Positions 17,706-53,615 of a stretch of 53,745 bases of DNA are shown one piece after another (positions within the stretch are counted from its first letter, which is position 1; each line of letters opens with the position of its first letter). The stretch spans positions 1 to 53,745 of the forward strand of contig JAJZEB010000009.1 of assembly GCA_021805805.1 (NCBI GenBank). The letters run 5' to 3'. The stretch comes from Pseudomonadota bacterium (GTDB lineage: Bacteria > Pseudomonadota > Gammaproteobacteria > Burkholderiales > Burkholderiaceae_C). Under the pieces are notes generated by a model. The model saw only the letters and a list, made by a program, of their open reading frames with translations. It made no database searches and was not told where the DNA came from. The position numbers and the translations under genes were made by a program.

Positions 17706-20700
17706 ATGCAGCCCGCGGCGTCCAGCCGGGGCCCGACCCAAGGTCCGTTTCCGCCCTCGATGCAGTCCCCGCCACCGACCCAGCACGTGCCGCCGCCGCG
17801 CGACGACACGTCGCGGGTCATGGCCCGGCTCGCCGCCGGAGGTCTGGCGCTGCTGCTGGCGATGGGCGCGGGAATCGCGTGGAGCCACTGGCAGGACGCC
17901 CGCCAGCGCGCTCAGCTGGTGCTTCGCTCCTACGCCGGCATCTACGCCCAGGCCTACGCCACACGGGCGGGCGAGCGGGAGCGGCGATTGCGCGACATCG
18001 CCGCCTTGCTGCAGACGACGCCGCAGCCGCTGGGCAAGGCACTGGCGCACGCGCTGCAGGGCTGGCCGCAAGTGCGCAATCTGGAGCTGCTCGGCGCCGA
18101 CGGCGCGGTGCTGGCGCGTTCGGGCGCGGCGTCGCGTGATCCGGCGCAGGACGGCAGCCTCGACGCCGTGCAGAAGCTCGCCTTGATCGGCTGCTCGGCG
18201 TCGTCGTCAACCTGCACCACGCCGCCTGTCCCGGGTCCCGCGGGCAGCCGGCTGACCGCCGACCTGCTGCGCCTGAGCCCGCCGATCGGCAGCGCCGCGT
18301 GGCTGGCCGCGGTCCGCGTGCAGCGCGACTCCGCACTGCTTCCCGACCTGCGCGCGGCTTATCCGGACGCCAGCCTGCAACTCGTGCGCAGCGATGGCCG
18401 GGTGCAATACGCGTATGCCCCCGCCGCGCAAGGCGCGCGCGCGATGCTCGACGGGCGAATCAGCGCCACGGTGGCGCTGCCGTCGATGCCGCTGACCGTG
18501 GTGGTGTCGCTGCCGCGCAGCGTGCTGCTGCGCCAGTGGCTGCGCGAGCTGCTGCCGTACGCGGCGCTGCTGGCGGTGCTCAGCGCGCTGGGCGCGGCGC
18601 TGATGGGCCTGGGCGCGCACCGCCTGCGCGGCGCCGAGCGGCAGCGTCGCGAAGCGATGCAGCGGCTGGAGCGCGCGTCGGCGTTCCTGGCCTTCCGTGC
18701 CAAGACCAACGAGCTGGTCGCCGGCGCCGGCGACGAGCACGAACTGCTGCAGGCCGTGTGCGAAGCCGCGATCGGAATCTCCGACTTGCGTCTGGCGTGG
18801 GTTGGCCGGCCCGACGCCAACGGCCACTGCACGGTGCTGGCCAGCGCCGGCGCGATCGGCTATCTGAACGGCGTCGACATCTCGGTCGACGCCGTGCACC
18901 CCGGATCCGGCGGGCCTTTCGGCCGGGCCTGGCGCAGCGGTGCGGCGCAGTTCAATCCGGGGTTCGCCGCCGGCGCCCTGCCGTGGGCCGAGCGCGCCGA
19001 GCGCCACGGCTTGCGCGCCAGTGCCGCGCTGCCGATCCGGCGCCGCGACCGCCACGATTCCATCCTGTCGCTGTACTGGGACGACACGATCGACTTCGAC
19101 TCCGGATTCCGCGCCATCATCGCCGAGGCCGCAGCCGACCTCGGCCGCGGCCTCGAGCGCCTGGACCTGGTCGCCGAGCAGCAGCGGGCGCTGCGCGCGC
19201 ACGAGCGCCAGGGTGAGTTGATGCGCACGGTCTTTTCGCAGATCGACGTGCTGATCGCGTCGCGCAACGAACAGGATCTGCTCGACACCGCGTGCACCCG
19301 ACTGCTCGAAGGCGGCCTGTTCGTCGCGGCCTGGATCGGCCAGCCCGACGCCTCCGGCGCGGTGCGCGCGCTGGCCGCCGGCGGCGAAGCGCTCGGAACT
19401 CTGGCGCAACATCCGGTGAACCTGAACGAGGTGCCGGACAGCGCGCTGGCGCGGGCCTGGGCCAGCGAATCCAAGGCGATCGAGACCGACCTCCAATCGC
19501 CGCTGATCGCGCCGTGGTCGATGTTCACCCTGCCCGACAGCCGGCCCGAAGCGATCACCCTGCCGATCCGCCGTTCCGAGCGCCTGTGGGGCTTGCTCGT
19601 GCTGGTCGCGCTCGACGGCGCCGATCTCGACGACATCGTGCAGAACACCTTGTTGCGCACCGCCGAGCTGATCGGCCAGGCGCTGACCGAGATCGACCTC
19701 AAGCAGTTGCTGCAGGCGCGCGAATCCGAACAGGCGCACCTGGCGCGCCACGACGCGCTGACCGGGCTGGCGAACCGTCTGGCGCTCGAGCAGCACCTGC
19801 CGCGCGCGATCGCGCGCGCCCGCCGCAGCGGCCACCAGCTGGCCATCGGCGTGCTCGACCTCGACGACTTCAAGCCGGTCAACGACAGCTTCGGCCACGC
19901 CGCAGGCGACCGGCTGCTGCAGGAGCTGGCGCGGCGACTGCAAGCGCAGCTGCGCGAAATCGACCTGCTGGCTCGGCTCGGCGGCGACGAATTCGTTCTC
20001 GTTCTCGACGACATCGACGGACTGCACCCGCGCCAGCAGCTCGCCGGCATCCTGGCGCGCATGCACCGCGCAGTGGAATTGCCGTTCGACCTCGGCGGCG
20101 GCGTGCAGGCCGAGGTCGGAATGAGCATGGGCCTGGCCTTGTACCCGGGAGACGGCGACGAGGCCGACCAGCTGCTGCGCCAGGCCGACGCCGCGCTGTA
20201 TGCGGCCAAATCGGGCAAGGGCCGGCGCGAGCGCTGGTGGCTGCTCAGCGGCGAGCACGTCGACGAGCCCGACGACGAGGAGATCGAACCTTACGGCGCG
20301 ACCGCCGCCGAACTGCTGGACCGCGCGGGCGACGCCGTGCGCGGGCTGGAGGACGCGTTCATCGACGCGTTCTACCAGAGCCTGGCCGACGACCCGCCCA
20401 GCGCGCGCATCATCGACATGCTGTCCGAGCGCGAAGTCGACCACCTGAACGAACAGCAAAGACGCCACCTGCGCCAGCTGCTGTCGCCGACGCTGACGCG
20501 GCGCGAACACGAGCATTGCGCACAGCGCCTGGGCCGCACCCACGCCACCGTCGGCGTCGACGGCAGCGCGGTGATGGTCGCGATGAGCCAATACGGCGCC
20601 GCGCTGCACCGCGCCACCCAGGGACTGCCGCTGCGCCTGGATGCACGCGTCAAGCTGCAGGCCGTGCTGCAACAGCGGCTGGCGACCGAGTTGCAGTCGA

Positions 20701-22502
20701 CCCAGCGTGGCGGCCTCGAGGTCGAGCACGAGCGGCAGGCGCACCTGACGACCCTCGAAATGGGTCTCGACGGCTGGGAACAGTCGGGCCAGCTGCCGCG
20801 CCAGGTGGTCGACCACCTGGCGATGCTGCCTGGAATCTGCGGCGTGGCATGCGGACGTCCGGACGCCGACAACCGCTACGTGCTCGAGTTCGCCGCGGGC
20901 AATGCGTCCGCCTACCTGCAGGGCTTGCGCGACGCCGACATCGACCTCGATTTCCAGCGCGCCTCGAGCGAGCCGGCGGGACCGACGCAGCGCGCGTGGA
21001 GCAGCGGCGTGATCGCCACCGAGCCGAACGAAGTGCGAGCCCAGACATTCGGCTCGGTCGCACGCCGCTTCGGCGTGCGCAGCACCGCAGCGCTGCCGCT
21101 GCTCGATCGCAGCGGCCACGTGCATCAGGTCATCACCCTGCTCGGCCAGTACCCTGGGCAGTTCGACGCGCCCGGCATGCGCCTGTGGATGGAGTCGGTG
21201 CAGCACCAGCTCAACCCGGCGTTCCAGCGCGTTCTCGCCGGGCAGGCGCAGCCGATCGCTGCGACACGTCGGGCGCATCTGCACGAATTGCTGTTCGGCA
21301 ACGGCCTGATCCTGTACGCACAGCCGCTGGTCAACATGGTCTCGGGCGAAATCGACAAGGTCGAGATCCTCGCCCGCCTGCAGGACGGCGAACGCATCCT
21401 CGCTCCGGGCGAATTCCTCGAGGCCTTCGGACACCACGAGCTGCGCATCCTGTTCCGCAAGGGAATCGACCAGGCATTGCGCTGGGTGCGCGAGTGGGAC
21501 GCGCAAGGCCTGCACATCGACACCAGCGTCAATCTGCCGCCCAGCGTTTTGCTCGACCCGGATTGCAGCAGCTGGATCGCGCACGCGCTCGGCGAACATC
21601 AGGTCGACGCCAGCCGGCTGTACCTCGAATTGCTCGAGACCTACGAGGACCTGCTCGACGGTGCGCGCCGCGACGCGGCGATCGCCAGCCTGTCGCGGCT
21701 CGGCGTGCGCTTGATCATGGACGATCTCGGATCGGGCTACAGCAGTCTGAAGCGCATGCGCAGCCTGCCGTTCCACACCGTGAAGATCGACCAGCAGATC
21801 GTGCTGCAGGCGCGAAGCGACCCGGGCAAGACCATCGCCTTCATCGGCGCGCTGGTGCGCATGGCCCAGGGCCTTGGCATGCAGGTGACGATGGAAGGGC
21901 TGGAGACTGCTGACCTGATCGAAATGGCGTTGAGCCTGGGCGTCGAGCACGGCCAGGGCTACGCGCTGTCGGCGCCGATGCCGGCCGCCGAACTGCCGCG
22001 CTGGGTGCTCGGCTGGCGCTGGGAGCGCGACGCAGGCCGGCCTGCGACCGCGCTCGGCCGCCAGGCGCTGCTGTACGCGCGCGACGTCACGCCGCTGGAC
22101 TGGACGCGGGTGATCGCATCGCACCAGGGCTACCGCAAAGGCATCGAGCGCACTTTGCGCGGCGAAGGTGTCCCTCTGCAATGGGCCGTCGTGCAGCGCG
22201 ACGACGCGTGCCTTCTCGGCCGCTGGATGAAGCGCCAGGAATCGACCATCTGGTCCGAGGCACGCCCGCTGTTCGCCAAAGTGCACGAGCTGCATACGCA
22301 GTTCCACCACCGCGCCGGCGCGCTGCTCAGGTTGGCGCAGCACGACGGCGACAGCGACGCCGCGCTGCGCGAACTCGACTCCGGCGCGCTGGACCGCACC
22401 AGCGACCGGCTGGTGCGCGCGCTGCACCAGCTGAGCTGGACCATGAGCGCCGACGCGGACGCGTCGGAGAGCGCCGAGCCGAGGACTGCGCGGGTCGGCT
22501 GA
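17706..22502 (+). CDS. Giant membrane c-di-GMP protein: TM-sensor-TM-GAF-GAF-GGDEF-globin-GAF-EAL-CZB-like
   Basis: A 1598-residue protein. Membrane segments at about 39-59 and 283-304 flank a periplasmic region. Two GAF-like domains follow (about 330-480 and 515-660). The GGDEF domain is at about 680-840: GGDEF at 759-763, with an RxxD inhibitory site (REID) five residues before it, so it should be an active, feedback-inhibited diguanylate cyclase. Residues about 855-1010 match the globin-coupled-sensor fold: proximal His921 in QRRHLRQLLS, RTHATVG after it, and Tyr in AFIDAFYQSL as candidate distal residue. A GAF (about 1030-1180) and an EAL domain (about 1190-1430) follow; E1220 (EILAR), VNLPP, LELLE, D1339-D1340, KID, MEGLE and GQGY are all present, so phosphodiesterase activity is plausible. 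The C-terminal part has H1473, C1502 (DDACLLGRW) and H1530/H1534 (HTQFH), matching the 3His-Cys zinc motif of CZB domains. Which activity dominates is unknown. Confidence 0.85.
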   Translation: MQPAASSRGPTQGPFPPSMQSPPPTQHVPPPRDDTSRVMARLAAGGLALLLAMGAGIAWSHWQDARQRAQLVLRSYAGIYAQAYATRAGERERRLRDIAALLQTTPQPLGKALAHALQGWPQVRNLELLGADGAVLARSGAASRDPAQDGSLDAVQKLALIGCSASSSTCTTPPVPGPAGSRLTADLLRLSPPIGSAAWLAAVRVQRDSALLPDLRAAYPDASLQLVRSDGRVQYAYAPAAQGARAMLDGRISATVALPSMPLTVVVSLPRSVLLRQWLRELLPYAALLAVLSALGAALMGLGAHRLRGAERQRREAMQRLERASAFLAFRAKTNELVAGAGDEHELLQAVCEAAIGISDLRLAWVGRPDANGHCTVLASAGAIGYLNGVDISVDAVHPGSGGPFGRAWRSGAAQFNPGFAAGALPWAERAERHGLRASAALPIRRRDRHDSILSLYWDDTIDFDSGFRAIIAEAAADLGRGLERLDLVAEQQRALRAHERQGELMRTVFSQIDVLIASRNEQDLLDTACTRLLEGGLFVAAWIGQPDASGAVRALAAGGEALGTLAQHPVNLNEVPDSALARAWASESKAIETDLQSPLIAPWSMFTLPDSRPEAITLPIRRSERLWGLLVLVALDGADLDDIVQNTLLRTAELIGQALTEIDLKQLLQARESEQAHLARHDALTGLANRLALEQHLPRAIARARRSGHQLAIGVLDLDDFKPVNDSFGHAAGDRLLQELARRLQAQLREIDLLARLGGDEFVLVLDDIDGLHPRQQLAGILARMHRAVELPFDLGGGVQAEVGMSMGLALYPGDGDEADQLLRQADAALYAAKSGKGRRERWWLLSGEHVDEPDDEEIEPYGATAAELLDRAGDAVRGLEDAFIDAFYQSLADDPPSARIIDMLSEREVDHLNEQQRRHLRQLLSPTLTRREHEHCAQRLGRTHATVGVDGSAVMVAMSQYGAALHRATQGLPLRLDARVKLQAVLQQRLATELQSTQRGGLEVEHERQAHLTTLEMGLDGWEQSGQLPRQVVDHLAMLPGICGVACGRPDADNRYVLEFAAGNASAYLQGLRDADIDLDFQRASSEPAGPTQRAWSSGVIATEPNEVRAQTFGSVARRFGVRSTAALPLLDRSGHVHQVITLLGQYPGQFDAPGMRLWMESVQHQLNPAFQRVLAGQAQPIAATRRAHLHELLFGNGLILYAQPLVNMVSGEIDKVEILARLQDGERILAPGEFLEAFGHHELRILFRKGIDQALRWVREWDAQGLHIDTSVNLPPSVLLDPDCSSWIAHALGEHQVDASRLYLELLETYEDLLDGARRDAAIASLSRLGVRLIMDDLGSGYSSLKRMRSLPFHTVKIDQQIVLQARSDPGKTIAFIGALVRMAQGLGMQVTMEGLETADLIEMALSLGVEHGQGYALSAPMPAAELPRWVLGWRWERDAGRPATALGRQALLYARDVTPLDWTRVIASHQGYRKGIERTLRGEGVPLQWAVVQRDDACLLGRWMKRQESTIWSEARPLFAKVHELHTQFHHRAGALLRLAQHDGDSDAALRELDSGALDRTSDRLVRALHQLSWTMSADADASESAEPRTARVG

Positions 22503-22526
22503 ACCGACCGCCTGCACGAGGACGCG

Positions 22527-23063
22527 ATGAAACCGTCGATCGCCCTGCTTGCCGTCTCATGCTGCGCCGCGCTGTGGACGCCGGCGGCGCGCGCGTTCAC
22601 GGTCTCCAGCAGCTCGCTTCGCGCCGACGGCAGCTTTGCCGCAGCGCAAGCCTACGACCTGCACGGCTGCGGCGGCGCGAACGTGTCGCCGGCGCTGCGC
22701 TGGACGCAATCTCCGCCCGGCACGCGTGGCTTCGCGCTGACCCTGTTCGATCGCGATGCGCGCGGTGGCCTCGGCTGGTGGCACTGGGTGGTCGTCGACC
22801 TGCCTGCGGGCACCCGCGCGCTTGCCGCCGGAGCTGCGCTTCCGGCCGGGGCCCGCGTCTGGCGCAACAGCTACGGACAGGACGCGTACGGCGGGCCCTG
22901 CCCGCCGCGCGGCGACCGCGCGCACCACTACGTGCTGACCGTGTACGCGCTGCCCGACGCCCGCATGCGGCTGCCGCGCGGCGACGACGCGGCGCAGGTC
23001 GCCGCTGCGCTGCAGGCCGCGGCGCTGGGCACCGCGCAGCTGGTCGGCACCTACGCCCGCTAG
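22527..23063 (+). CDS. YbhB/YbcL-type (PEBP family) periplasmic protein
   Basis: A 178-residue protein with a signal peptide (MKPSIALLAVSCCAALWTPAARA). The mature part is a PEBP/Raf-kinase-inhibitor-like fold: AYDLHGCGGANVSPALRWTQSP, FALTLFDRDA, GWWHWVVVDLPAGT, and GPCPPRGDRAHHYVLTVYAL, which hold the anion/ligand pocket residues. The E. coli homologues YbhB and YbcL are known; YbcL variants modulate host responses, but most have no defined ligand. GAGGA lies upstream of the ATG. It starts 24 bases after the large c-di-GMP gene, so co-transcription is possible. It is convergent with the next gene over a shared hairpin. Confidence 0.9.
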   Translation: MKPSIALLAVSCCAALWTPAARAFTVSSSSLRADGSFAAAQAYDLHGCGGANVSPALRWTQSPPGTRGFALTLFDRDARGGLGWWHWVVVDLPAGTRALAAGAALPAGARVWRNSYGQDAYGGPCPPRGDRAHHYVLTVYALPDARMRLPRGDDAAQVAAALQAAALGTAQLVGTYAR

Positions 23064-23064
23064 T

Positions 23065-23100
23065 TAGTCCACTGCGTCAGGGAAATGGCGCAGTGGACTA
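23065..23100. terminator. 12-bp perfect hairpin between convergent genes
   Basis: TAGTCCACTGCG (23065-23076) pairs perfectly with CGCAGTGGACTA (23089-23100) across a 12-base loop. It sits immediately after the YbhB-like stop, and its right arm includes the TAG stop of the leftward gene. Placement suits a bidirectional terminator or an mRNA 3'-end stabiliser; no T-run follows on either strand. Confidence 0.55.
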
Positions 23101-23460
23101 GCGGCCGAAACGGCTGATCGCCGCCAGGTTGCGCGTGCGGTCGATGCGGTCCTGGCGTCGCCGCGCCTGGTCGAACGCCTCTTCGAACGAGGCCCCCTGG
23201 CCCATGACGACGAACACGTCGAGGCCGGCATCCCAGTCGTCGTAACCCACCTGGTAGCGATGGCGGGTATCGAGCCTCGCGCGCAGGCTCTCGAGCTTGC
23301 TCCGGTAGTCGCGCGGTCGCGCCTGCTCGAGGCGCTCCATTTCGAGCTGCAGCGCCGCGCGCGCAGCCGCCGACAGGCCATAGCCCGGGCCGCGGTCGAC
23401 CACCCGCGCACGCGCGCCCCAGAGGCGGCGCGCTTGGTGCAAGGCGATGGATTCGTTCAT
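23098..23460 (-). CDS. Hypothetical 120-residue basic protein
   Basis: Start ATG at 23460 (MNESIALHQARRLWG). No family is recognised. The protein is rich in Arg and Ala; the middle (ARAALQLEMERLEQARPRDYRSKLESLRARLD) is probably helical or coiled-coil, and the C-terminal half has a distinctive YQVGYDDWDAGLDVFVVMGQ and ends ARRRQDRIDRTRNLAAISRF. It has no signal peptide or membrane segment. The stop codon is within a perfect hairpin shared with the convergent YbhB-like gene. The coding bias of this stretch fits a real gene, but function cannot be given. Confidence 0.6.
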   Translation of the reverse strand: MNESIALHQARRLWGARARVVDRGPGYGLSAAARAALQLEMERLEQARPRDYRSKLESLRARLDTRHRYQVGYDDWDAGLDVFVVMGQGASFEEAFDQARRRQDRIDRTRNLAAISRFGR

Positions 23461-23549
23461 CTCTGGAAGAGCTCGGTGGGCTTTTGTGCCGATTGTCGAC
23501 GATTTCGCTTCGGCCGCAACCCCCGGAGTCACCCATCCGTGCGGATCCG

Positions 23550-28868: not shown

Positions 28869-29019
28869 CCTGCACCGCGACAGCGACACCGCGGAACCCG
28901 AACCTTTGACGCCACGGCGAGTCTGACCCGGCATTTCACGCCCGTTTGACCCCAGGCAAAGGCCGGCGCCGCCAGTCGCGCTGAAATGGGAGTCCGAGCG
29001 AATCGATCAGGAGCCCGAC

Positions 29020-30081: not shown

Positions 30082-30263
30082 TGCATCGTCTCCTTCACGC
30101 GCCAGGCGGCGCGGCTCCGGGCCCAAGCATTCTACCATCGGCGGCCACGGTCAACCGGCAGCGTGCCTTGCACGGTCCGGATCATGCGCGCCTGCCTGCG
30201 CTTTGCCGACCGTTTGGCTGCGCGCGCCGGCCGCGGGCGCCTGCTCCGTGCCGCAAGCTGCCG

Positions 30264-31265: not shown

Positions 31266-34200
31266 ATGCATCTCGACCCTGCCACAGCGGACCTGCTGCA
31301 ACACGCCCGGCCGTTGTTGCTGGCCTTGCTGCGCAATCGCCACGCCGGCGTCTACGTCCGCGTCGATGCGGATTTCAGCCACGTCGATGCAGCGTTCGCC
31401 GGGCTGTTCGGCTACCGGCCCGACGAGCTTTGCGCCGGACTCGGTCTGCTCGACCTCGCCGACGCCGACGACCGCGCCCGGCTGCGCGCCGAGCTCGCGC
31501 GCGGCGGCGCCGACGAAGCGTCCGCGCTGCGCATCGACCTGCGCGCGCGGCGACGCGACGGCAGCCGTTGCGTCGTGCGCCTGCTCGACATCGGCGCACG
31601 GCCCGGCACGCGCACGCCCGCCATCGGACTGGCGCTCGGTCTCGACGAAGCGGACTCAACCGACGCGCGGCACTTCGTTCGCCAATTGATCGACACCGTG
31701 CCGAATCCTGTTTTCTACAAGGACCGGCAAGGGCGCTATCTGGGCGCGAACCGCGCCTTCGAACAGCTCACCGGGCACCCCGTCGACGCCGTGCTCGGCC
31801 GCACCGTGCATGCCTTGTATCCGGCCGCGATCGCACAGCGCTACGCAGCCGACGACGAGGCGCTTTTCGCCCATCCGGGCCACCGCATGCTCGAGCGCGA
31901 AGTCCCGCATGCCGACGGATCGCGCCGCGCTGTGGTGTTCAGCAAAGCGACTTTCGAGCGCGTCGACGGCTCGATCGGCGGCCTCATCGGCGTGATTCTC
32001 GACGTCTCCGAGCGCAAGGCCAGAGAACGCGCGCTCAACGACATGCACGCGCGCCTGGCGCTGGCCGTCGAAGCCGCGCAACTGGCGCTCTGGGACCTCG
32101 ACATCGCGACCGACCGGGTCCGGCTCGACCATCGCTGGGCGACGATGATCGGACTGCCGCCGCAGGACATCACCGTTGCCGGCGGCGCGCTGCTTGCGCG
32201 CGTGCATCCGGACGACCTGCCGCAGACCGTGCGTGCGGCAGTCGCCCTGCTCAAAGGCGACGCTCCGGGCTTCGACCGCGAACTGCGCGTGCGCACCGAG
32301 GACGGCCGCTGGATCTGGATCCGCTGCACCGGGCGCGTGATCGAGCGCAACGCCGCAGGGCGCGCGCTGCGCGCGCTGGGCAGCAACCAGGACATCACCG
32401 CACACAAGGCTGCCGAGCAGCAGATCGTGCATGCAGCATTCCATGACTTCCTCACCGGGCTGCCGAACCGCTACGCGCTGACCCGCCACCTGGACCAGGC
32501 GCTGGCACGCGCGGCGCGGCTGGGGTCGATGGTCGCGCTGTGCATGTTCGACCTCGATGACTTCAAGGGGGTCAATGACCGCCACGGCCACGAGACCGGC
32601 GACCGGCTGCTGCGCGAACTCGCCGAGCGGCTGCGCGCGCTGGTTCGCGAAGCCGACTTCCTGGCCCGCCTCGGCGGCGACGAATTCGTCATCGTCATTG
32701 CCGACCTGCAGCAGGCGAGCGCAGCAACCGAGATGGACGCGCTGCTGTCACGGGTGCACAGCGCGGTCGAGCAGCCGTTCGACGCCGCCGGCCAGCCGGT
32801 GCAGGTCGGCATGAGCGGAGGTCTGGCCTTGTATCCGCTCGACGCACAGGACGCCGACGCGCTGCTGCGCGAGGCCGACGTGGCGATGTACCAGTCCAAG
32901 CAGCACAAGCTCGACCGCAGCCGCTGGTGGCGCACGCGCAGCTGCCGCGAGGAATGGGTCGCGGAACCCGACCCGGCGCCCGACGCATTCAGCGCGCGTG
33001 CCGCCGAACTCCTGGCGCGCCACCGCGCGCTGCTCGACTCGGTGCTCGATGCGCACGCCGCGGCGTTCTTCGATCCCGCCACCTTCGATGCAGGGCGAAA
33101 GGCTCTGTTCGCGACCCTCAACGACGCCGAGCTGCAGCGGCTGCGCGTCGCCCAACGCAGCAATCTGGCTGCGCTGCTCGACGGCGCAGCAGACGCCGAC
33201 CGCGTCTGCGGCGAAGCGATGCGCATCGGTTTCGCGCATGCGCTGATGGGGGTCAGCGCGTCGGTGCTGGTGCAGGCAGTCGACCAGTTGCGCGCGCTGG
33301 TCGGAGAACACCTGAACAAGGCCTCGATGCTGGCCCGCGACCGCCACCGACTGCATCAGGTGATCGACTCCAGGCTGCGGCTGCAGCTGCGTGCGCAGCT
33401 GGGCGCGCTGGACATGGCGCAGGCGCAGTACGTCGGGCTTCTGTCGGACACGCTGCCGCCGCACGGCACCCTGTGGGCCGACGTCGTCGCCGACGAAATC
33501 GCGCAGCTCGGCGCGTTGGCCGGAGTGCGCGGCGTCACCTTGATGCGGCTGGGTCCGAACGGCGCGTTCGCGGTCGAAAGCAGCGCCGGCCCCGTCGGCG
33601 AGACGATCGCCGAGGTCTTGCAGCGCCCGGAGAGCGAGGCGGTGGTCGACCCGCAATCACCGCGCGGCCAGGGACTGAGTGCGGTCGCCTGGCGCAGCGG
33701 CGAGATCTGCAGTTCGCCGTCGTACACGAACGATCCGCGCTATGCGGCTTGGCGTGGCCGCGCGGCCGAGCTCGGCCTGCGTTCGACGCTGAGCGTTCCG
33801 CTGCGCGACGCCGGCGGCGCGATGGTCGCGGTACTGAGCTTCTTCGGCGCCTACCCGAACCAGTTCGAGTCGGCCTCGATGCGGCAGTTCGCGCGCGGCC
33901 TGCAGCAGCGCTGGGAACAGCTGTGGTCGCGCAGCACCACGCCGGCGCCGGTGATGCCGCAGCAGCGCGCGCGCCAGCTGCGCGAGCGGTTGTTCGCCGG
34001 CGGCTTCGTGCTGCATCTGCAGCCGGTGGTCGATCTGCGCAGCGGGCGCCTGGTCAAGCTCGAGGGGCTCGGGCGCCTGTGCATGGGCGACGAACTGATC
34101 GGCCCCGGTCTGTTTCTGCCGTTGCTCGGCGACGCCGAGCTCGACCACCTGTTCCGCCTCGGACTCGACCATGTGCTGGCCGCGCTGGTCGCGCTCGAGG

Positions 34201-34943
34201 CCGACGGCCTGCAGGTCGACGTCTCGATCAATATGGCGCCCAGTACCCTGCTCAACGCCGATTGTCCGCGCTGGGTCGACGATGCGCTGCGCCGGCACGG
34301 CGTGGCGCCGCAGCGCCTGCACCTGGAACTCCTGGAAAGCGCCGAGCTCGATCCGTCGGCGCAGGACGAGGCGGTCGAGCGCCTGGTCCGCGTCGGAGTC
34401 AAGCTGGCGATGGACGATCTGGGCGCCGGCTACAGCAGCCTGCAGCGCCTGTCGGCGCTGCCGTTCGACCTGATCAAGATCGACCAGAGCCTGATCCTGA
34501 ATCTGCGCCGTGCGCCGTTGCGCAGCCTGCCGCTGATCCGCTCGCTGATCCAGCTTGCCCGAGACCTCGACCGCCAGGTCGTCGTCGAAGGGCTCGAGGA
34601 CCCGGGAATGATCGAGGCCGCGCTTGCGCTCGGTGCCGAGTCCGGCCAGGGCTACGGAATCGCGCGCCCGATGCCACTGGACGCGGTGGCTGCGTGGCAC
34701 TCGGGCTACGCCGCGGCGCCTGCGAATGCGCCGCCGCGCAGCTACCTGGGCGCGCTCGCGCACCAGTGGCTGCTGACCCAGCGCGACGCGCCGGCCGACG
34801 AACGCGCGGTCGCCGCGTTCCTGCGCGGCTGCGCCGACCCCGAAGCAGCGCAGTGGCTGCAGCGGCTGGACGCGGCAATCGACAGCGGATCGACGCGGCA
34901 GGCGCTGCTGCGCTGGCTGGTCGAACGCGCGACGCGCGAGTAG
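31266..34943 (+). CDS. Soluble c-di-GMP protein: PAS-PAS-PAS-GGDEF-degenerate globin-GAF-EAL
   Basis: A 1225-residue protein with no membrane segment. Three PAS-like domains (about 15-130, 140-255 and 265-395); the second has FYKDRQGRYLGANRAFEQLTG, the third the PAC end WIWIRCTGRVIERN. GGDEF at 470-474, with READ as an RxxD inhibitory site five residues before, so cyclase activity is expected. At about 570-720 is a helical domain collinear with the globin domains of the genes at 17706 and 49881, but the proximal His position is Asn633 (AQRSNLAALL) and the distal Tyr position is Ala (VLDAHAAAF), so heme binding is doubtful. A GAF follows (about 735-885), then EAL (about 900-1140) with E933 (LEGLGR), INMAP, LELLE, DD at 1050-1051, KID, EGLE and GQGY intact. 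The last 75 residues resemble the C-terminus of the 49881 protein. Role: c-di-GMP turnover in response to PAS/GAF signals. Confidence 0.86.
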   Translation: MHLDPATADLLQHARPLLLALLRNRHAGVYVRVDADFSHVDAAFAGLFGYRPDELCAGLGLLDLADADDRARLRAELARGGADEASALRIDLRARRRDGSRCVVRLLDIGARPGTRTPAIGLALGLDEADSTDARHFVRQLIDTVPNPVFYKDRQGRYLGANRAFEQLTGHPVDAVLGRTVHALYPAAIAQRYAADDEALFAHPGHRMLEREVPHADGSRRAVVFSKATFERVDGSIGGLIGVILDVSERKARERALNDMHARLALAVEAAQLALWDLDIATDRVRLDHRWATMIGLPPQDITVAGGALLARVHPDDLPQTVRAAVALLKGDAPGFDRELRVRTEDGRWIWIRCTGRVIERNAAGRALRALGSNQDITAHKAAEQQIVHAAFHDFLTGLPNRYALTRHLDQALARAARLGSMVALCMFDLDDFKGVNDRHGHETGDRLLRELAERLRALVREADFLARLGGDEFVIVIADLQQASAATEMDALLSRVHSAVEQPFDAAGQPVQVGMSGGLALYPLDAQDADALLREADVAMYQSKQHKLDRSRWWRTRSCREEWVAEPDPAPDAFSARAAELLARHRALLDSVLDAHAAAFFDPATFDAGRKALFATLNDAELQRLRVAQRSNLAALLDGAADADRVCGEAMRIGFAHALMGVSASVLVQAVDQLRALVGEHLNKASMLARDRHRLHQVIDSRLRLQLRAQLGALDMAQAQYVGLLSDTLPPHGTLWADVVADEIAQLGALAGVRGVTLMRLGPNGAFAVESSAGPVGETIAEVLQRPESEAVVDPQSPRGQGLSAVAWRSGEICSSPSYTNDPRYAAWRGRAAELGLRSTLSVPLRDAGGAMVAVLSFFGAYPNQFESASMRQFARGLQQRWEQLWSRSTTPAPVMPQQRARQLRERLFAGGFVLHLQPVVDLRSGRLVKLEGLGRLCMGDELIGPGLFLPLLGDAELDHLFRLGLDHVLAALVALEADGLQVDVSINMAPSTLLNADCPRWVDDALRRHGVAPQRLHLELLESAELDPSAQDEAVERLVRVGVKLAMDDLGAGYSSLQRLSALPFDLIKIDQSLILNLRRAPLRSLPLIRSLIQLARDLDRQVVVEGLEDPGMIEAALALGAESGQGYGIARPMPLDAVAAWHSGYAAAPANAPPRSYLGALAHQWLLTQRDAPADERAVAAFLRGCADPEAAQWLQRLDAAIDSGSTRQALLRWLVERATRE

Positions 34944-35856: not shown

Positions 35857-35862
35857 GTCCAT

Positions 35863-39622: not shown

Positions 39623-40804
<1,182 letters not shown>

Positions 40805-40821
40805 ATACAAGGCGGGACCAG

Positions 40822-40908: not shown

Positions 40909-40921
40909 TGGGGGCCCACCT

Positions 40922-41764: not shown

Positions 41765-41784
41765 GGTGGCGTCCTCCCCCGGGT

Positions 41785-43041: not shown

Positions 43042-43059
43042 CGTGCCTCCGTGGGGTTG

Positions 43060-43839: not shown

Positions 43840-43871
43840 GCGTGGTTCTCCTTCGGAACGGGGTCGGTGGC

Positions 43872-45649: not shown

Positions 45650-45752
45650 GGCATGACCCTTCGCGGCCCGTGAACAGTGGGCCCGTGTGCACACTTTAAC
45701 GGCGTGGTTCAATGCGTCCAATGATTTATGCGCATCCATCCCGATTCATGTC
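45650..45752. promoter_or_regulatory. Divergent control region of the catabolic operon and its LysR gene
   Basis: The 103-base spacer holds a 10-base palindrome, GTGTGCACAC (45685-45694), and a more A+T-rich stretch with CAATGATTTATG near the LysR start. Both promoters must lie here. The LysR site cannot be pinned down. Confidence 0.35.
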
Positions 45753-46670: not shown

Positions 46671-46734
46671 CGCGGACAACGTTCCGGAGTCGCTCCGGAG
46701 TCGCTCCGGCGTGCCGTCGGCGCCCCGCCGCGGC

Positions 46735-47976
46735 TCAGGCGCCGCCCAGCGCCAGCGCGGCCCAGAACGCGGCGACCAGCGCCGCCTGCGCCGCGGCGTT
46801 GCGCCAGGCGTAGCGCGCCGAGCCGGTGATGAACGCGGCCACGACCTTGCTCAGCGCGTTGGAGCTGAATGCGCCGGCGATGGCGCGCGCCGCGGTCGCG
46901 CCGTCGAGCAGGTGCTGGGCGTGCAGCTGCGCCGCCGAGGTCGAGGTGGCGTGGGCGTCGGCGAAGCCGGCCAGCACCGCGGCGGCCAGCACGCCGCGGT
47001 CGCCGAGATGGCTGCGCGCCAGGTCGGCGAGCAGCAGCATGGCGCCGACCAGCGCGGCGAACAGCAAGGCGTTGCGCGCGCTGAAAGGCTGCCGCGCAAC
47101 CTGCACCGTGTCGCCGGCCGGCCCGCCGCGCGCGCGCCACGCGTACCACGCGGTGGTCCCCAGCAGCAGCAGCGCACAGGCGCCCAGCGACGCCGCCAGC
47201 CGTGGCAGCAGCGACGGCGAAACGATCGCGACCAGCGAGCCGAGGCCGACCACGGTGGTCGCGCTCGACGCCAGCGCGGCCGCGGTGCAGGCGTCGAGCC
47301 GCTGCGGCTCGGCGCGCGCGCGCCGCCCCATCGCCGCCACCGTGGCCATGCTCGACACCACGCCGCCGAGCAACCCGGCCAGCAGCAGCGCGCGCCCGGC
47401 GCCGAACAGCCGCAGCGCGACATGCGCGCCGCCCTCGATGACCATCATCAGCACCGCCAGCAGCCACAGCAGGTGCGGGTTCAGGCCGCTGAGCCAGCGC
47501 AGCGGCCGGTCGGGAAGCAGCGGCAGCACGATCAGCACTGCCGCGGCCAGCAGCAGCAGGTGGTTGAGCTCGTCGGCGCTGAGCGCGTGGCGCACGAAGC
47601 CGTGCAGCCTGGCCTTGATCGCGAGCAAGCCGGCGACCAGCACCGCGAGCGCGGCGCCGAGCGCCGGATCGCGCATGCTCAGCGCGCCGAGCAACAGGGT
47701 GACGAGCAGCGCCAGCTCGCTGGTGATTCCGGGATCGTCGCCGCGGGCGCGCAGGTAGCCGGCGACCACCAGCGCACCGACGGCCAGCGCCGCCGCGGCC
47801 AGCGCGGCCTCGCCGAAGGTCTGCGCCAGCGCGCCGGCCAGCGCCGCCAGCGCGAAGCTGCGCATTCCCGGCTGGGCTTCGTCGGCGCCGTCGTCGCGCT
47901 GCCGCTCCAGCCCGATCAGCAGCCCGACGCCGAGCGCGGCGCCCCAGCCGGCAAGATGTTCGAGCGCAAAGGCCAT
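46735..47976 (-). CDS. MgtC/SapB N-terminal and DUF4010 membrane protein
   Basis: A 413-residue polytopic membrane protein with about 11-12 helices. The first 130 residues are MgtC/SapB-like: GLLIGLERQRDD (conserved ERQ), GMRSFALAALAGAL, and ITSELALLVTLLLGAL. The rest is DUF4010: GLLGGVVSSMATVAAMGRRAR, ASSATTVVGLG, and GFADAHATSTSAAQLHAQ. Family members are widespread; a role in ion or Mg handling is guessed from MgtC but not shown. GGAG is present before the ATG at 47976. Divergent from the CoA-disulfide reductase gene over 155 bases. Confidence 0.9.
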   Translation of the reverse strand: MAFALEHLAGWGAALGVGLLIGLERQRDDGADEAQPGMRSFALAALAGALAQTFGEAALAAAALAVGALVVAGYLRARGDDPGITSELALLVTLLLGALSMRDPALGAALAVLVAGLLAIKARLHGFVRHALSADELNHLLLLAAAVLIVLPLLPDRPLRWLSGLNPHLLWLLAVLMMVIEGGAHVALRLFGAGRALLLAGLLGGVVSSMATVAAMGRRARAEPQRLDACTAAALASSATTVVGLGSLVAIVSPSLLPRLAASLGACALLLLGTTAWYAWRARGGPAGDTVQVARQPFSARNALLFAALVGAMLLLADLARSHLGDRGVLAAAVLAGFADAHATSTSAAQLHAQHLLDGATAARAIAGAFSSNALSKVVAAFITGSARYAWRNAAAQAALVAAFWAALALGGA

Positions 47977-48131
47977 CGCTGCAGGGCTCCGTCGCCGTGG
48001 GTTGGCGGCCAGCATAGCGCGCGACCGCCGGCCTGCGGCCACATACCCACGGCAGTTTGTTTGCGCGACATCAAGGCGCGCCTCGGCAGTGCAGGCACGA
48101 TGGCGGCTGACCCTCTGTTGTGCATTCCGTG

Positions 48132-49871
48132 ATGAACTACCTGATCATCGGCGGCGTCGCTGGCGGCGCCACCGCGGCGGCGCGACTGCGCCGCATCGAC
48201 GAACACGCCCGCATCGTGCTGATCGAGCGCGGCCCCTACATCAGCTTCGCCAACTGCGGCCTGCCCTACCACCTGTCGGGCACCATTGCCGAGCGCGCAC
48301 AGCTGCTGGTGACCACCGAGGAACGTTTCGAGGCGCGCTACCGGATCGACGTGCGCATCGGCACCGAAGCGGTGGCGATCGACCGCGCACGCCATCAGGT
48401 CGTGCTGCGCGACGTGGCCAGCGGGCGCACCGTCACCGAGACCTACGATCGGCTGCTGCTGTCGCCCGGCGCCGAGGCGCTGCGCCCGCCGTTGCCCGGA
48501 ATCGATTCGCCGCGCGTGCACACCCTGCGCAACATCCCCGACCTGGATCGCATCGTGCGCGACCTCGACGGCGCGCGACGCGCGGTGGTCGTCGGTGGCG
48601 GTTTCATCGGCCTGGAAGTCGCCGAGAACCTGCGCGAGCGCGGGCTGCGCACGACTCTGGTCGAGGCCGCCGCGCAGGTCATGGCGCCGCTGGACGAGGA
48701 AATGGCCGCCATCGTCCACGCCAGCCTGCGCCAGCACGACATCGGCCTGCTGCTCGGCGAGCGCGTCGAGCGCTTCGACGACACCGGCGACGGCGTCGTG
48801 CTGTACCTGTCCAGCGGCCGGCGGCTGCGCGCCGACCTGGTCGTGCTGGCGATCGGCGTGCGCCCGGAGACCGCGCTGGCGCGCGCCTGCGCCCTGGAAC
48901 TGGGCGCGCGCGGCGGAATCCGCGTCGACCCGTTCCTGCGCACCTCCGACGCGGACATCTACGCCGTCGGCGACGCCATCGAGGTCGAGCACCGCGTCAG
49001 CGGCCGCGCCGCGCTGGTGCCGCTGGCCGGACCGGCCAACCGCCAGGCACGGCTGGCGGCCGACAACATGGCCGCGCCCGACGATGCGCAACGCCGGCGC
49101 TACCGCGGCGCGCTCGGCACCGCGGTGCTGAAGGTGTTCGATCTCGCGGTGGCCTGCACCGGACTGGGCGAGGACCAGCTGCGCGCGCAGGGCATCGCGT
49201 GCCGCGGCAGCATCACCCACGGCGCGTCGCACGCCTCGTACTACCCCGGCGCGCAGCCGCTGACGCTGAAGCTGGTGTGGGACGACGCCGGCCGCATCCT
49301 CGGCGCACAGGCGATCGGCGCCGCCGGCGCCGACAAGCGCATCGACGTGATCGCCGGCGCGATGCACGCCGGGCTCGACGTGCGCGAACTGGCCGAGCTC
49401 GAGCTGGCCTACGCACCGCCGTTCGGTTCGGCCAAGGACCCGGTCAACGTTGCCGGCTACGTCGCCGGCAACGTGCTCGACGGCAGTTGCCCGATGATCG
49501 ACTGGCGCACGCTGCGCGCGCGCCTGGGCGGCGGCGCGCCGCTGCAGCTCCTCGACGTGCGCAGCGCCGAGGAATTCGCCGTCGGCAGCCTGCCCGGCGC
49601 GCGCCACATCGCGCTCGAGACGCTTCGCGCGCGGCTGCACGAGCTCGACCCGGCAGCGCCCACGGTGGTCTTCTGCCAGGTCGGGTTGCGCGGCTACCTG
49701 GCGCTGCGGGTGCTGCTGCAGCACGGCTTCGCGGACGTCGCGAACCTGTCGGGCGGATTCAAGACGTATGCCTGGGCCTGCGGCCGCCAGGACAACCCCG
49801 ACCTGTTCGACGCCGAAGAGATCAAGCCGCGGCCGCAGCGCGTGATCGACGCCGCGCTGGCCGGCGACTGA
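48132..49871 (+). CDS. CoA-disulfide reductase with C-terminal rhodanese domain
   Basis: A 579-residue FAD-dependent pyridine nucleotide-disulfide oxidoreductase fused to rhodanese (CoADR-Rhd type). FAD motif YLIIGGVAGGATAAARLRRID; single redox Cys in SFANCGLPYHLSG (about residue 43); NAD(P) motif AVVVGGGFIGLEVAENL; FAD ribityl motif DADIYAVGDAIEV; dimerisation domain with LVWDDAGRILGAQAIG; and rhodanese domain (about 470-560) with LLDVRSAEEFAVGSLPGARHI and active Cys in VVFCQVGLRGYLALRVLL. The known relatives reduce CoA disulfide or CoA persulfide and process sulfane sulfur. The ATG at 48132 starts the FAD motif; ribosome-binding site weak. Confidence 0.93.
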   Translation: MNYLIIGGVAGGATAAARLRRIDEHARIVLIERGPYISFANCGLPYHLSGTIAERAQLLVTTEERFEARYRIDVRIGTEAVAIDRARHQVVLRDVASGRTVTETYDRLLLSPGAEALRPPLPGIDSPRVHTLRNIPDLDRIVRDLDGARRAVVVGGGFIGLEVAENLRERGLRTTLVEAAAQVMAPLDEEMAAIVHASLRQHDIGLLLGERVERFDDTGDGVVLYLSSGRRLRADLVVLAIGVRPETALARACALELGARGGIRVDPFLRTSDADIYAVGDAIEVEHRVSGRAALVPLAGPANRQARLAADNMAAPDDAQRRRYRGALGTAVLKVFDLAVACTGLGEDQLRAQGIACRGSITHGASHASYYPGAQPLTLKLVWDDAGRILGAQAIGAAGADKRIDVIAGAMHAGLDVRELAELELAYAPPFGSAKDPVNVAGYVAGNVLDGSCPMIDWRTLRARLGGGAPLQLLDVRSAEEFAVGSLPGARHIALETLRARLHELDPAAPTVVFCQVGLRGYLALRVLLQHGFADVANLSGGFKTYAWACGRQDNPDLFDAEEIKPRPQRVIDAALAGD

Positions 49872-49880
49872 GCTGCGCGA

Positions 49881-52800
49881 TCAGTGTGCCACGTGCGCCG
49901 CCAGCCAGGCCGACAGCTGCTGGCTCGCGGCGCGGCGCGAATCGGCGTCGCCCACCGCGTGCACCCGCTCGTGCCAGCGCATGGCCTGATCCACATCGGC
50001 CAACCCGCAGTCGCGCAGAAAAGCGCTCAGCACGCACGTCTCGACGTCGGCGCAGCGATGCACCGGGGCCTCGTGCATATGCATCCAGTGGTAGGCCAGC
50101 GCGCCCAGCGCGGTGCGCGCCGGACCGGCCGGCGCTGCCGCTGTGCCGCCTCCGGCACGGCGCGCCGCCCAGTCGGGGAAGTCCTCCGCGGGCATCGGCC
50201 GGGCGATTCCGTAGCCTTGCCCGTGGGTCGCGCCCAAGGTCGTCACGGCTTCGATGATGGCCGCGTTCTCGACTCCTTCGACAATGACTTCCTTCTCGAA
50301 ATCACGGCCGATCTGAACGATGGTCCGGATCAGGCTCAGCGCCTTGATCGGATCGCGGCCGATGTCGAGCACCAGCGCCTGGTCGACCTTGATGACGTCG
50401 AACGGAAGGCTGGCAAGGCGCTTGAGGCTGCTGAAGCCCGAGCCGAGGTCGTCGATCGCCAGTTGCACGCCCAGGCGCTTGAGCGCCGTGATCGCCGCGT
50501 CGCGGCGCGCTTCGTCGACTTCCTGCGTCTCCAGCAGTTCCAGCGTCAACCGGTCCGGCGGCAACGCATGCCGGCCCAAGGCCTCGCCGACCCAGTCGGC
50601 GCAATCCGGGTGCAGCAAGGTGCTCGGCGGCAGGTTCAGCGAAATCTCGACGTCGAGCCCATCGGCGCGCCACTGCGCAAGCAGCTCCAGGCTGCGCATC
50701 AGTCCCATGCGGAACAGTGCGTCGAGGTCGGCGTCGCGCAGCGCCGGCAGGAATGCTCCGGGAGCGATCACGCCGCCGTCGCGACCGACCAGGCGGGCAA
50801 GCGCCTCGACCTTGCGCAGGCTCCCGTCGTGCAACTGCACGACCGGCTGCACGTGCATGCGCAACCCGCCCGCGTACAGCAGCTGCCGGTAGGCGTCGGC
50901 GTCCTGCTGGCGCACCAGCGGCTGGCGCCGGCGCAACTGGTCGTCGATCAGGTTCCAGCGGTTCTGCACCGCGAGCAGGAAGGTGTGCGCCTGCTCGGTG
51001 TCGAACTGTCCCGGATACGCGCCGTACAGAAGCAGCACCGAATCCGTCTGCCCGGCGCGCCGCAGCGGAATCGCTGCCATGCTGCGGATGCCGAGTTCGG
51101 CAGCAGTCTGGCGCCACGGCTCAAGCGCCGGATTGCCCTCGTAATCGGCCGCGGTGGTGATCGCCTCCGTTCGCCAGGCCTGCGCGGCGGGCCCGCGACC
51201 GTTCGGGCTGTCGGGGTCGAGCGCCGACTCCAGCCCGGGCGTCGACAGCACCTGCGCGATGCGCTCGGCGTGCGTGCCGGCGCTGGCCTGCACGGCCAGG
51301 ATGCCGCTGCTGTCGGGGCGCTGCAGCGCACTGCCCTGGATTCCCGGCAGCCTGGCCAGCGCCTGCAGCTTGCCCTCGATGACTTCGGCCCAGGCCTGGC
51401 CGGGCCCAGGCGCCGGCCGCGCCAGGTAGGCGTTGTAGGCGCTTTGCACCTCGAGCATGGCATCGAGCTGGCCTTGCAGATCCATCTGCAGGCGCGCGTC
51501 GACCACCCGCAGCAAGCGGTAGCGGGCCCGCGCGTGGTGCCCGCTGGAGTCGAGGTGCCAGCCCAGCAATTCGCGCAGCAGCTGCATCGCAGCGGCCAGC
51601 CAGGCCGGAGTCACGCCGACCAGCGCATGCAGCACGCCAAGGCCGCGGGCGCGGTCGCGGATGTGCGCCGCCGTGGTGTCGGCGTCGAGCAGGAAACGCA
51701 GATGCCGGCGCTGGCCATCGCGAAGCCGCTCGATCCGCGCAGGTGACAGGGCAGCGAGGATCGCGCGCGTCGCCGTTTGCTGCAGCAGCTCGTCGTACAG
51801 GGTATCGACGAATCCCTGCCCGACGGCATCGAGCACCTCGCGGATCTGGCCCAGCAGCTGGCGCGCGTCGCTGCCGAACGGATCGAATGGCGGTTCGGCG
51901 ACCTCCTCGTCGGCGTTCGCGCCGGAGAGCAACCACCACGCGCTTCGCGTGGCCTTCTGATGCTTGATCCGGTACATGGTCTCGTCGGCCTTGCGCAGCA
52001 ACGCGTCGGGTACTTCGCCGTCGACCGGAGCGAGCACCACGCCCATGCTCAGCCCGACTCGCGCACTGCGCCCGGCGCCCAGCTCGAACGGCGTCTGCAC
52101 GGCGCCGTGCAGACGCTCGAGCGCGGCGTCGAGCTGGGCCGGAGCATGGCGCGGGTCGAGGTCCTCGATGACCAGCACGAACTCGTCGCCGCCGAGGCGG
52201 GCGACCATTTCATCGCCACGCATCAGCGCCTGCAGGCGCTCGCCGAGCTGGCGCAGCAGCGCGTCGCCGACCTCGTGACCGTAGCGATCGTTGACCGGCT
52301 TGAAGTCGTCGAGGTCGGCCAGCCCGACGGCGACCACCGAGCCCTGATGGCCGGCGCGCCGGATCGCCTGCTCCAGGTGCCGCTCCAGCGCGCGCCGGTT
52401 CGGCAGATCGGTCAACGGGTCGACCAGCGCCAGTCGCTCCAGCCGCCGCTGCAACTGCTCGCGCTCGGTCACCTCGACGATGGTCCAGACGACCATCGTC
52501 GCGCCGCCGCCGCCGTCGTCGACGCGACGCCCCGACAGGTCGACACAGGCCGGCGTGTCGTCCAGGCGACGCACGTCGAGCGCACGCGCCGACGCCTCGC
52601 CATCGCGCAGCGCGTGCCGCGTGAGGTCGGGCAGCGGCGCGCGCGCCAGCGCCGGAAGCAGGTCCGGAACCGTGCGGCCGATCGCGCGGCTGACGTCGTT
52701 CAGGCCGAAAATGCGCCCGATCGCGGCATTCGCCTCGACGATGACGCTGTCGGGGTAGCGCACCATGACCACTCCGGCGTAGGCATTGGCCAGCAGGCTG

Positions 52801-53615
52801 TTGTGCTGGCGCTGCAGATTGGCCTGGCGCCGGCGCATGCGCGCGATGATCGCGGTGGCCAGCGCGACCAGCGCCAGCACCAGCGAGCGACCCGCCAGGC
52901 GCCAGCCCAGCCCGCGGCTGTAGCTGCGCCAGACGCGCGCCTGCGTCCAGCCGACCTCGACGGCGAGCGGAAGCGCATGCACCGGCTCGCGCTCGCTGCG
53001 CACGATCGGCTGCGCGCCGGCGTGCTGCGGCTCGCCGACGATGCTCCGGCCGTCGCGAGTGTCGCGCAGCACCACGCGCCAGCCGCGGCTCGCGGCCAGC
53101 GTCGGCAGCAGCTCGTCGACGCGGTAGGGCGAGTCGATGAAATAGCGCACGGTCCCTTCCGCGGAACGAACCCGATACCGCATCGCGATGACTTCGGTGG
53201 CGAAGCGGCGCGACTGCCTGACCGATCCCAGCAGCAGGTCGGGGTGCCCGGGAAGCGGCTGCAATCCGGCAGCGCGCGACAGCGACCGGGACGCCAGCTC
53301 GGCGTTGGTCGACCACAGCAGCCGCGCGCCATCGGCCGATTGCACGGTCAGCGCCAGCAGTTCGGGATGCCGCGCTGCGAACTCGGCCAGCAATCCACGC
53401 GTGCGCGCGTCGATCGTCCCGGAGTCGCCGATCGCGCTGGCGAGAAATTCCAGCTCCTTGTATTGCAGCATCACGCGCAGCGCGACGCGCCCGCCGACAT
53501 CCAGCGCGAGCTCGCGGGCCTGCGCGGCGACCTGCTCGCGCGCGTCCAGATAATCGATGCGCTCGCGGTTCACCGCCCAGCCGACGATCAGCAGCAGCGG
53601 GAACCACAACAGCAC
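49881..53615 (-). CDS. Membrane c-di-GMP protein: TM-sensor-TM-PAS-GGDEF-globin-GAF-EAL, 5' end interrupted
   Basis: Third member of the GGDEF-globin-GAF-EAL set. Residues are numbered from the upstream in-frame ATG at 53741, which lies inside an IS end. TM1 at about 43-58, periplasmic region, TM2 at about 281-300, PAS (about 310-425), GGDEF (about 435-600; motif 517-521, preceded by RGDE, so the RxxD inhibitory site is imperfect). The globin-like domain is at about 615-775 with proximal His680 (QRRHLRFLL) and Tyr in GFVDTLYDEL. GAF (about 790-930) and EAL (about 950-1185) follow, with E979 (VEALAR), LNLPP, LELLE, DD, KVD, EGVE and GQGY intact. The last 80 residues match the C-terminus of the 31266 protein. 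The native start is lost: coding similarity stops at about 53620, where IS-like DNA begins. A GTG at 53615 could serve as a new start, but it lies at the edge of TM1, so the protein may be misplaced or not made. Confidence 0.8.
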   Translation of the reverse strand: MLLWFPLLLIVGWAVNRERIDYLDAREQVAAQARELALDVGGRVALRVMLQYKELEFLASAIGDSGTIDARTRGLLAEFAARHPELLALTVQSADGARLLWSTNAELASRSLSRAAGLQPLPGHPDLLLGSVRQSRRFATEVIAMRYRVRSAEGTVRYFIDSPYRVDELLPTLAASRGWRVVLRDTRDGRSIVGEPQHAGAQPIVRSEREPVHALPLAVEVGWTQARVWRSYSRGLGWRLAGRSLVLALVALATAIIARMRRRQANLQRQHNSLLANAYAGVVMVRYPDSVIVEANAAIGRIFGLNDVSRAIGRTVPDLLPALARAPLPDLTRHALRDGEASARALDVRRLDDTPACVDLSGRRVDDGGGGATMVVWTIVEVTEREQLQRRLERLALVDPLTDLPNRRALERHLEQAIRRAGHQGSVVAVGLADLDDFKPVNDRYGHEVGDALLRQLGERLQALMRGDEMVARLGGDEFVLVIEDLDPRHAPAQLDAALERLHGAVQTPFELGAGRSARVGLSMGVVLAPVDGEVPDALLRKADETMYRIKHQKATRSAWWLLSGANADEEVAEPPFDPFGSDARQLLGQIREVLDAVGQGFVDTLYDELLQQTATRAILAALSPARIERLRDGQRRHLRFLLDADTTAAHIRDRARGLGVLHALVGVTPAWLAAAMQLLRELLGWHLDSSGHHARARYRLLRVVDARLQMDLQGQLDAMLEVQSAYNAYLARPAPGPGQAWAEVIEGKLQALARLPGIQGSALQRPDSSGILAVQASAGTHAERIAQVLSTPGLESALDPDSPNGRGPAAQAWRTEAITTAADYEGNPALEPWRQTAAELGIRSMAAIPLRRAGQTDSVLLLYGAYPGQFDTEQAHTFLLAVQNRWNLIDDQLRRRQPLVRQQDADAYRQLLYAGGLRMHVQPVVQLHDGSLRKVEALARLVGRDGGVIAPGAFLPALRDADLDALFRMGLMRSLELLAQWRADGLDVEISLNLPPSTLLHPDCADWVGEALGRHALPPDRLTLELLETQEVDEARRDAAITALKRLGVQLAIDDLGSGFSSLKRLASLPFDVIKVDQALVLDIGRDPIKALSLIRTIVQIGRDFEKEVIVEGVENAAIIEAVTTLGATHGQGYGIARPMPAEDFPDWAARRAGGGTAAAPAGPARTALGALAYHWMHMHEAPVHRCADVETCVLSAFLRDCGLADVDQAMRWHERVHAVGDADSRRAASQQLSAWLAAHVAH

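Follow-up and report, generated by a model that had tools for sequence, protein, structure and literature searches.

Internal sensor globins between GGDEF and EAL domains in a family of Thiomonas proteins

GGDEF domains make cyclic di-GMP (c-di-GMP), EAL domains break it, and sensor globins relay the binding of a gas to the output which follows them. In the cyclases DosC/DgcO, PccGCS and BpeGReg the globin is N-terminal, then comes GGDEF, and there is no EAL domain. DcpG of Paenibacillus dendritiformis also has its globin first, and we know of no GAF domain between its globin and its EAL domain. Here we describe three genes of a contig of 53745 bases, which we call the window; it is the entire contig C125 of a genome of the genus Thiomonas (3.27 Mb in 211 contigs). 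They share with the three cyclases a sensor globin of the same Pfam type coupled to GGDEF (PMC8846402, in part), and with DcpG the presence of one globin with two opposing heads, which in DcpG are gas-dependent (PMC10882959, in part). However, in DosC-type cyclases the globin lies ahead of GGDEF, while in the Thiomonas family it comes after it. By definition, globin-coupled sensors have an N-terminal globin and a variable C-terminal part (PMC1457004, in part); in our proteins the globin is found at residues 861–1003, 573–716 and 620–763, behind GGDEF.

The three long open reading frames, W1, W2 and W3, have the shared order GGDEF, globin, GAF, EAL, as it is apparent in the list of open reading frames and in Pfam scans. 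An earlier note on this DNA had claimed this order for the three genes, with a globin-like domain in the middle, and the scans bear it out. It placed the third gene at 49881–53615; the gene is there, with its coordinates corrected to 49881–53741 and its strand to minus. The first ATG of W3 is 4 bases from the contig end, so that its N-terminus may be incomplete. The features are the following:

17706..22502, plus strand: W1, 1598 amino acids, with N-terminal GAF, GGDEF, protoglobin, GAF, EAL and a CZB-like tail (open reading frame, Pfam)
19743..20219, plus strand: W1 GGDEF, residues 680–838, motif GGDEF, I-site RxxD (Pfam, alignment)
20286..20714, plus strand: W1 protoglobin, residues 861–1003 (Pfam 867–996), distal Tyr and proximal His retained
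20757..21200, plus strand: W1 GAF between globin and EAL, residues 1018–1165
21276..21977, plus strand: W1 EAL, residues 1191–1424 (Pfam 1195–1424), catalytic residues intact
22122..22322, plus strand: W1 weak match to CZB (zinc-binding), residues 1473–1539, under the Pfam cut-off
31266..34943, plus strand: W2, 1225 amino acids, with PAS repeats, GGDEF, diverged globin, GAF, EAL and a short tail
32436..32909, plus strand: W2 GGDEF, residues 391–548 (Pfam)
32982..33413, plus strand: W2 globin, residues 573–716, proximal His retained, distal Tyr replaced by Phe; alone below the Pfam cut-off
33447..33902, plus strand: W2 GAF, residues 728–879 (Pfam 784–877)
33975..34670, plus strand: W2 EAL, residues 904–1135 (Pfam 903–1135), catalytic residues intact
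49881..53741, minus strand: W3, 1286 amino acids, with PAS, GGDEF, protoglobin, GAF, EAL and a tail (open reading frame, Pfam)
51951..52430, minus strand: W3 GGDEF, residues 438–597, I-site RxxE (Pfam)
51453..51884, minus strand: W3 protoglobin, residues 620–763 (Pfam 622–754)
50967..51419, minus strand: W3 GAF, residues 775–925 (Pfam 787–922)
50196..50894, minus strand: W3 EAL, residues 950–1182, catalytic residues intact (Pfam)
49893..50117, minus strand: W3 C-terminal tail, homologous to the W2 tail and to many family members, with the pattern H..W / C.L..FL / H..VH

The profile searches support a sensor globin of the protoglobin type as the predicted fold of the middle domain. GGDEF, GAF and EAL are detected in all three proteins. 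Protoglobin is found above the Pfam cut-off of 25 bits in W1 (41.6 bits) and W3 (48.5 bits). It is absent from the matches when the whole W2 protein is scanned; the globin stretch of W2 (181 residues), scanned alone, gives E 1.6e-4 and 22.2 bits, below the cut-off. This stretch aligns over its full length with the other paralogues. With a profile built from 83 family globins the PDB has four matches at E <0.05: the Tlr1989 protein 8h17 (2.4e-6), 2w31, entitled 'GLOBIN' (7.9e-5), HemAT 1or4 (0.01) and the 'anti-anti-sigma factor' 7o0i (0.02), which we take to be a sensor globin of the RsbR type. The next one is a designed helical repeat protein (E 0.08); the globin-coupled histidine kinase 5ohe has E 0.67. 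In the four alignments, which compare our family with HemAT, 2w31, 8h17 and 7o0i rather than with DosC, PccGCS or BpeGReg, the family His always falls on a His and the distal Tyr on a Tyr. Presumably this His is the proximal haem ligand and this Tyr the distal residue; the roles of the haem residues are given for a V. fluvialis relative (PMC10882959, in part). W1, W2 and W3 all have the proximal His; the distal Tyr is present in W1 and W3 and is Phe in W2. Pfam Protoglobin matches 75 of the 83 family globins at E 0.1, and in the reverse direction a model from 14 globins of the Thiomonas genome finds 28 of 30 protoglobin loci elsewhere (E 0.01).

The order of the domains is not due to chance: it recurs in 81 of 94 proteins. 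This set is formed by 14 proteins of the Thiomonas genome and 80 relatives fetched by similarity to the globin-GAF-EAL part of W3, with GGDEF not in the query. Another 11 proteins are globin-GAF-EAL and two are partial. Linkers are near-constant: 22–24 residues between GGDEF and globin in 68 of 106 cases, 25–27 between GAF and EAL in 114 of 124. The catalytic residues are also conserved. In the GGDEF domains of W1, W2 and W3 the motif and the D, F, K, N, D positions are retained, the I-site being RxxD in W1 and W2 and RxxE in W3; in their EAL domains E, N, E, D, D, K, E, Q are all present, with the letters EAL themselves written EIL in W1 and EGL in W2. The roles of the GGDEF positions are those we assume for them, and the EAL positions are taken from an EAL domain of the RocR type. 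Over 130 family members the proximal His is found in 108, Tyr and His together in 90, and a GGDEF or GGDEL motif in 93, while a GGDEF match is absent from 20; an EAL match is present in 124, and 118 of these have all nine positions tested. The earlier note was also right in setting this order apart from the known globin-first one. In a class sample of 30 genomes, ranked by a Pfam score which favours canonical globins, the best protoglobin match of each genome lies before GGDEF in 23, has no GGDEF in the same frame in seven and never follows GGDEF.

The Thiomonas genome has 13 Pfam protoglobin matches, whereas each of 57 other positive genomes has at most four (184 others were sampled). The globin profile of the family finds 17 matches over 14 contigs; a globin-GAF profile finds the same 17 places and 11 weaker matches, mostly to the GAF part. 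According to a comparison of coordinates, 16 of the 31 EAL matches and 15 of the 46 GGDEF matches of the genome belong to these copies, one of the 15 being separated from its globin by a stop codon. In 13 of the 17 there is a GGDEF before and an EAL after the globin in one frame, the proximal His is retained in 15, and nine retain together GGDEF (one as GGDEL), proximal His and the EAL set. One copy (C209; L018/L143 in G000) has a single in-frame stop codon which splits GGDEF (247 amino acids) from globin-GAF-EAL (682 amino acids), and as such it is one of the 11 proteins without GGDEF; the split is either real or an assembly error. A frameshift in this copy was also considered, wrongly: its GGDEF is in the same frame.

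Differing N-terminal inputs had been claimed in the earlier note, and Pfam agrees: GAF in W1, PAS repeats in W2 and PAS in W3. W1 has three GAF_2 stretches, one of them downstream of the globin; transmembrane stretches were assigned to W1 and W3 by visual inspection alone. Other copies of the genome have hemerythrin, GAF, MASE1, PAS or CHASE ahead of the same core, and three copies in a single clade of nine rows (support 99) carry hemerythrin with GAF, MASE1 with GAF and CHASE with PAS. It is right to speak of varied N-terminal inputs on a constant core.

We consider it moderately probable, judging from domain order and residues, that the family consists of two-headed c-di-GMP enzymes in which the N-terminal sensor controls synthesis and the globin mainly breakdown. 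GGDEF, sensor globin, GAF, EAL and tail would form a fixed core with interchangeable N-terminal sensors. The latter (PAS, GAF, CHASE, MASE1 or hemerythrin) would act on the adjoining GGDEF cyclase. The globin would act from ahead of GAF-EAL, as globin-coupled sensors normally precede their output: it would bind haem through the conserved His, and the EAL phosphodiesterase would be the main receiver of its O2 (or NO/CO) signal. We infer that the globin-GAF pair serves the EAL which follows it, and the N-terminal sensors GGDEF; with separate sensors for GGDEF and EAL, one molecule would thus take different inputs for synthesis and for breakdown. These proteins are most easily seen as a sensor-GGDEF unit joined to a globin-GAF-EAL unit which also exists alone: the 11 proteins without GGDEF and a Caballeronia protein count in favour of this proposal. 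Haem binding, gas sensing, a gas-controlled head and the activity of both heads are all predicted properties.

Several observations weigh against it. Among the 17 genome copies three have a degenerate GGDEF, three have no in-frame GGDEF, one has no EAL and another has a degenerate EAL; given such heads, gas sensing or two-headed activity cannot hold for the whole family. Since EAL loss is also seen, gas need not act on EAL alone. The globin of W2 scores low in Pfam and its distal Tyr is replaced by Phe, and the proximal His is missing in 22 of the 130 members. Forms without GGDEF are nested among those which have it, so that a four-domain ancestor which lost GGDEF repeatedly fits at least as well as a fusion of two units: there are 15 such rows, which require at least four changes on the tree, the C209 copy being left out of the count. 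An asymmetry by which GGDEF is lost and EAL never was dropped, because EAL is lost or cut in several copies and the 80 named relatives, which are those among the matches listed, had been fetched by EAL patterns.

Alternatively the globin may work as a two-way switch, with GGDEF favoured in one gas state and EAL in another, so that gas alone would set the balance; the earlier note had suggested that a gas or redox signal could set it. This idea is plausible, and we consider it rather unlikely. The nine genome copies with both heads intact agree with it, as do the short, near-constant linkers which join the globin to GGDEF and to GAF-EAL. The order of DcpG, with the globin first, speaks against the idea, whereas its behaviour speaks for it: O2-bound DcpG is active as a phosphodiesterase and NO-bound DcpG as a diguanylate cyclase (PMC10882959, in part). 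Two of the three copies with a degenerate GGDEF, L009 and L011, also speak against it: they retain the Tyr and His of the globin, which a balance device would not need there. The third, L154, has lost both. It is still less probable that the globin is a haem-free spacer or relay which carries N-terminal signals from GGDEF to EAL. The 22 members without the proximal His would fit such a role, and in the set of 83 rows 11 of the 16 which lack it have Gln in its place. Seven of them (L098, L105, L107, L112, L118, L124 and L128) form one clade, also devoid of the distal Tyr, in which haem has probably been lost and the rest of the core retained. However, most members and nearly all genome copies keep the His, and the loss of the distal Tyr tends to go with that of the proximal His, beyond expectation (Fisher p 6.9e-6 in 83 rows, indicative only since the rows are related).

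As for the history of the family, the earlier note had suggested local duplication for W1, W2 and W3, which lie within 36 kb. A recent tandem origin is hardly credible. A quick maximum-likelihood tree with 120 members, with SH-aLRT support only, places them in three distant clades with supported neighbours, each being closest to a gene of another genome: W1 to a copy in G021, W2 to L120 and W3 to L050 (90% identity). A constrained tree which holds the three together has a log-likelihood 492.6 lower and is rejected under this model (p-AU 0.0007), and local duplication with it. They are only three of 17 copies, and the globin of W3 has 29% identity with W1 and 36% with W2, versus 47% with a copy on another contig. 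In a tree of EAL domains the family (27 rows) is one clade, with support 99, apart from the genome's remaining 15 EALs. Its nearest outside EALs are C201, a GAF-GAF-GGDEF-EAL protein with no globin found, and C193.

Known relatives have related combinations of these domains. AFE_1712 of Acidithiobacillus and WP_004872567 of the A. caldus plasmid pACA1.1 have globin, GGDEF, EAL and CZB in one protein, and W1 too has a weak CZB match; when scanned, the plasmid protein differs, with its globin (13–160) before GGDEF (327–484). Its gene (L196) adjoins a PilZ gene on a plasmid of 27.5 kb typed as mobilizable. A survey of Acidithiobacillus lists 80 GGDEF-EAL proteins with Protoglobin, one written Protoglobin-GGDEF-EAL-CZB (PMC6416229, in part); some of them may have the internal order, and the one such protein scanned is that of the plasmid. 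A protein of Caballeronia sp. Lep1P3 (706 amino acids) has the same globin-GAF-EAL with 32.5% identity over residues 3–566 of a 566-residue W3 query; it differs by having no GGDEF and no N-terminal sensor, and its protoglobin is below the Pfam cut-off. Sensor domains are N-terminal in Castro 2015 (PMC4331095, in part), and a 2022 review describes N-terminal globin or PAS domains which sense O2 (PMC8846402, in part). The Thiomonas genome paper reports an island with many GGDEF and EAL proteins, of which some are present in duplicate in two strains (PMC2829063, in part), and does not contain the word globin; a Thiomonas biofilm paper has arsenite-responsive diguanylate cyclase genes and, in the part used, no globin (PMC5481541). 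The GGDEF-globin-GAF-EAL order did not turn up in the running text of the open-licence papers searched, nor in the available parts of PMC6450195, PMC9756655, PMC6956133 and PMC3770913.

The family, looked for in other genomes by its profiles, is found across Thiomonas and patchily elsewhere. All 28 Thiomonas genomes, this one included, have 2–20 matches, and the same search in 32 genomes outside the genus gave one weak match in each of two. A family restricted to the genus, which this search first suggested, is refuted by matches elsewhere. In a sample of the taxonomic family 15 of 200 genomes match; 12 lie beyond the genus, four of which match at E <1e-20. At least 13 of 369 genomes match at E 1e-20 in the class sample, this genome included, and in the phylum sample at least one of 398, which is this genome itself; these are lower bounds, since scoring was limited to five candidates per genome, and lineages which carry the family, such as Acetobacter, were missed in the phylum sample. 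At E 1e-20 there are 14 matches in Thiomonas sp. FB-6, 8 in T. delicata, 7 in a Nitrospirota metagenome-assembled genome (MAG), 3 in Dyella ginsengisoli (one GAF-only), 3 in Halothiobacillus LH_M7, 2 in a Ferrovum MAG and one each in Acetobacter garciniae and Oleiagrimonas soli. Acid mine drainage is a known habitat of several of these genera, and the genus names suggest that the family may track it. Spread by plasmid was discarded: of the best 5000 plasmid records a single one reaches a coverage of 80% or more for the W3 query, while the 2561 records which match the W1 query all stay below 80%.

Some individual copies have features of their own. In G014, L168 and L169 are 100% identical over 4530 bases; they lie about 27 kb from each other, oppositely oriented and with EAL cut, a very recent duplication. 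Two small globin-GGDEF proteins of G021 (L160:4935–5966 and L164:586–1788), with the canonical order and a degenerate EGDRF, adjoin family members. A recent N-terminal swap on an identical core, considered for two G021 copies, is not the case: over 6.4 kb the two are 96% alike, the open frame of one being merely shorter.

The tails and surroundings of the three genes may be described briefly. The different C-terminal parts claimed in the earlier note are indicated for W1, by its weak CZB match (E 8.3e-5, below the Pfam cut-off), and not seen between W2 and W3, whose tails are homologous over about 70 residues with 34% identity. A CZB domain has three His and one Cys. Family tails other than that of W1 have an H/C/H/H-like pattern, seen by eye only; CZB models were applied to them within general Pfam scans. 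A known fold for the tail was dropped, as the PDB search gave only unrelated weak matches. Among the best 25 of the 27, 32 and 29 NCBIfam rows for W1, W2 and W3 no equivalog is above cut-off, only GGDEF and PAS domain models. Antisense to W1 there is an open frame of 1436 codons (18207–22517), probably a shadow frame of high GC. The neighbours identified by Pfam (SurA, malic enzyme, formyltransferase, DprA and others) have an ordinary chromosome look, so no island is shown. A gene for an IS110-type transposase is found at 39623–40762, between W2 and W3.

The family departs from the globin-first rule which defines globin-coupled sensors. It offers a natural series in which one core has live, degenerate or missing heads, with or without the haem ligand, and it opens to direct study the coupling of an internal gas sensor with two enzymes of opposite action. 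The high number of protoglobin copies suggests that gas sensing weighs heavily in the c-di-GMP control of Thiomonas. We tentatively see here a new class of globin-coupled sensors, although this broader picture is doubtful: the gas sensor would be a hinge between synthesis and breakdown, amplified to the point of involving about half of the EAL domains of the genome, and each intact copy would pair one oxygen reading with a differing second input. Oxygen might then be the shared reference of the c-di-GMP network across acidic oxygen gradients, with a module which would move between phyla in that habitat.

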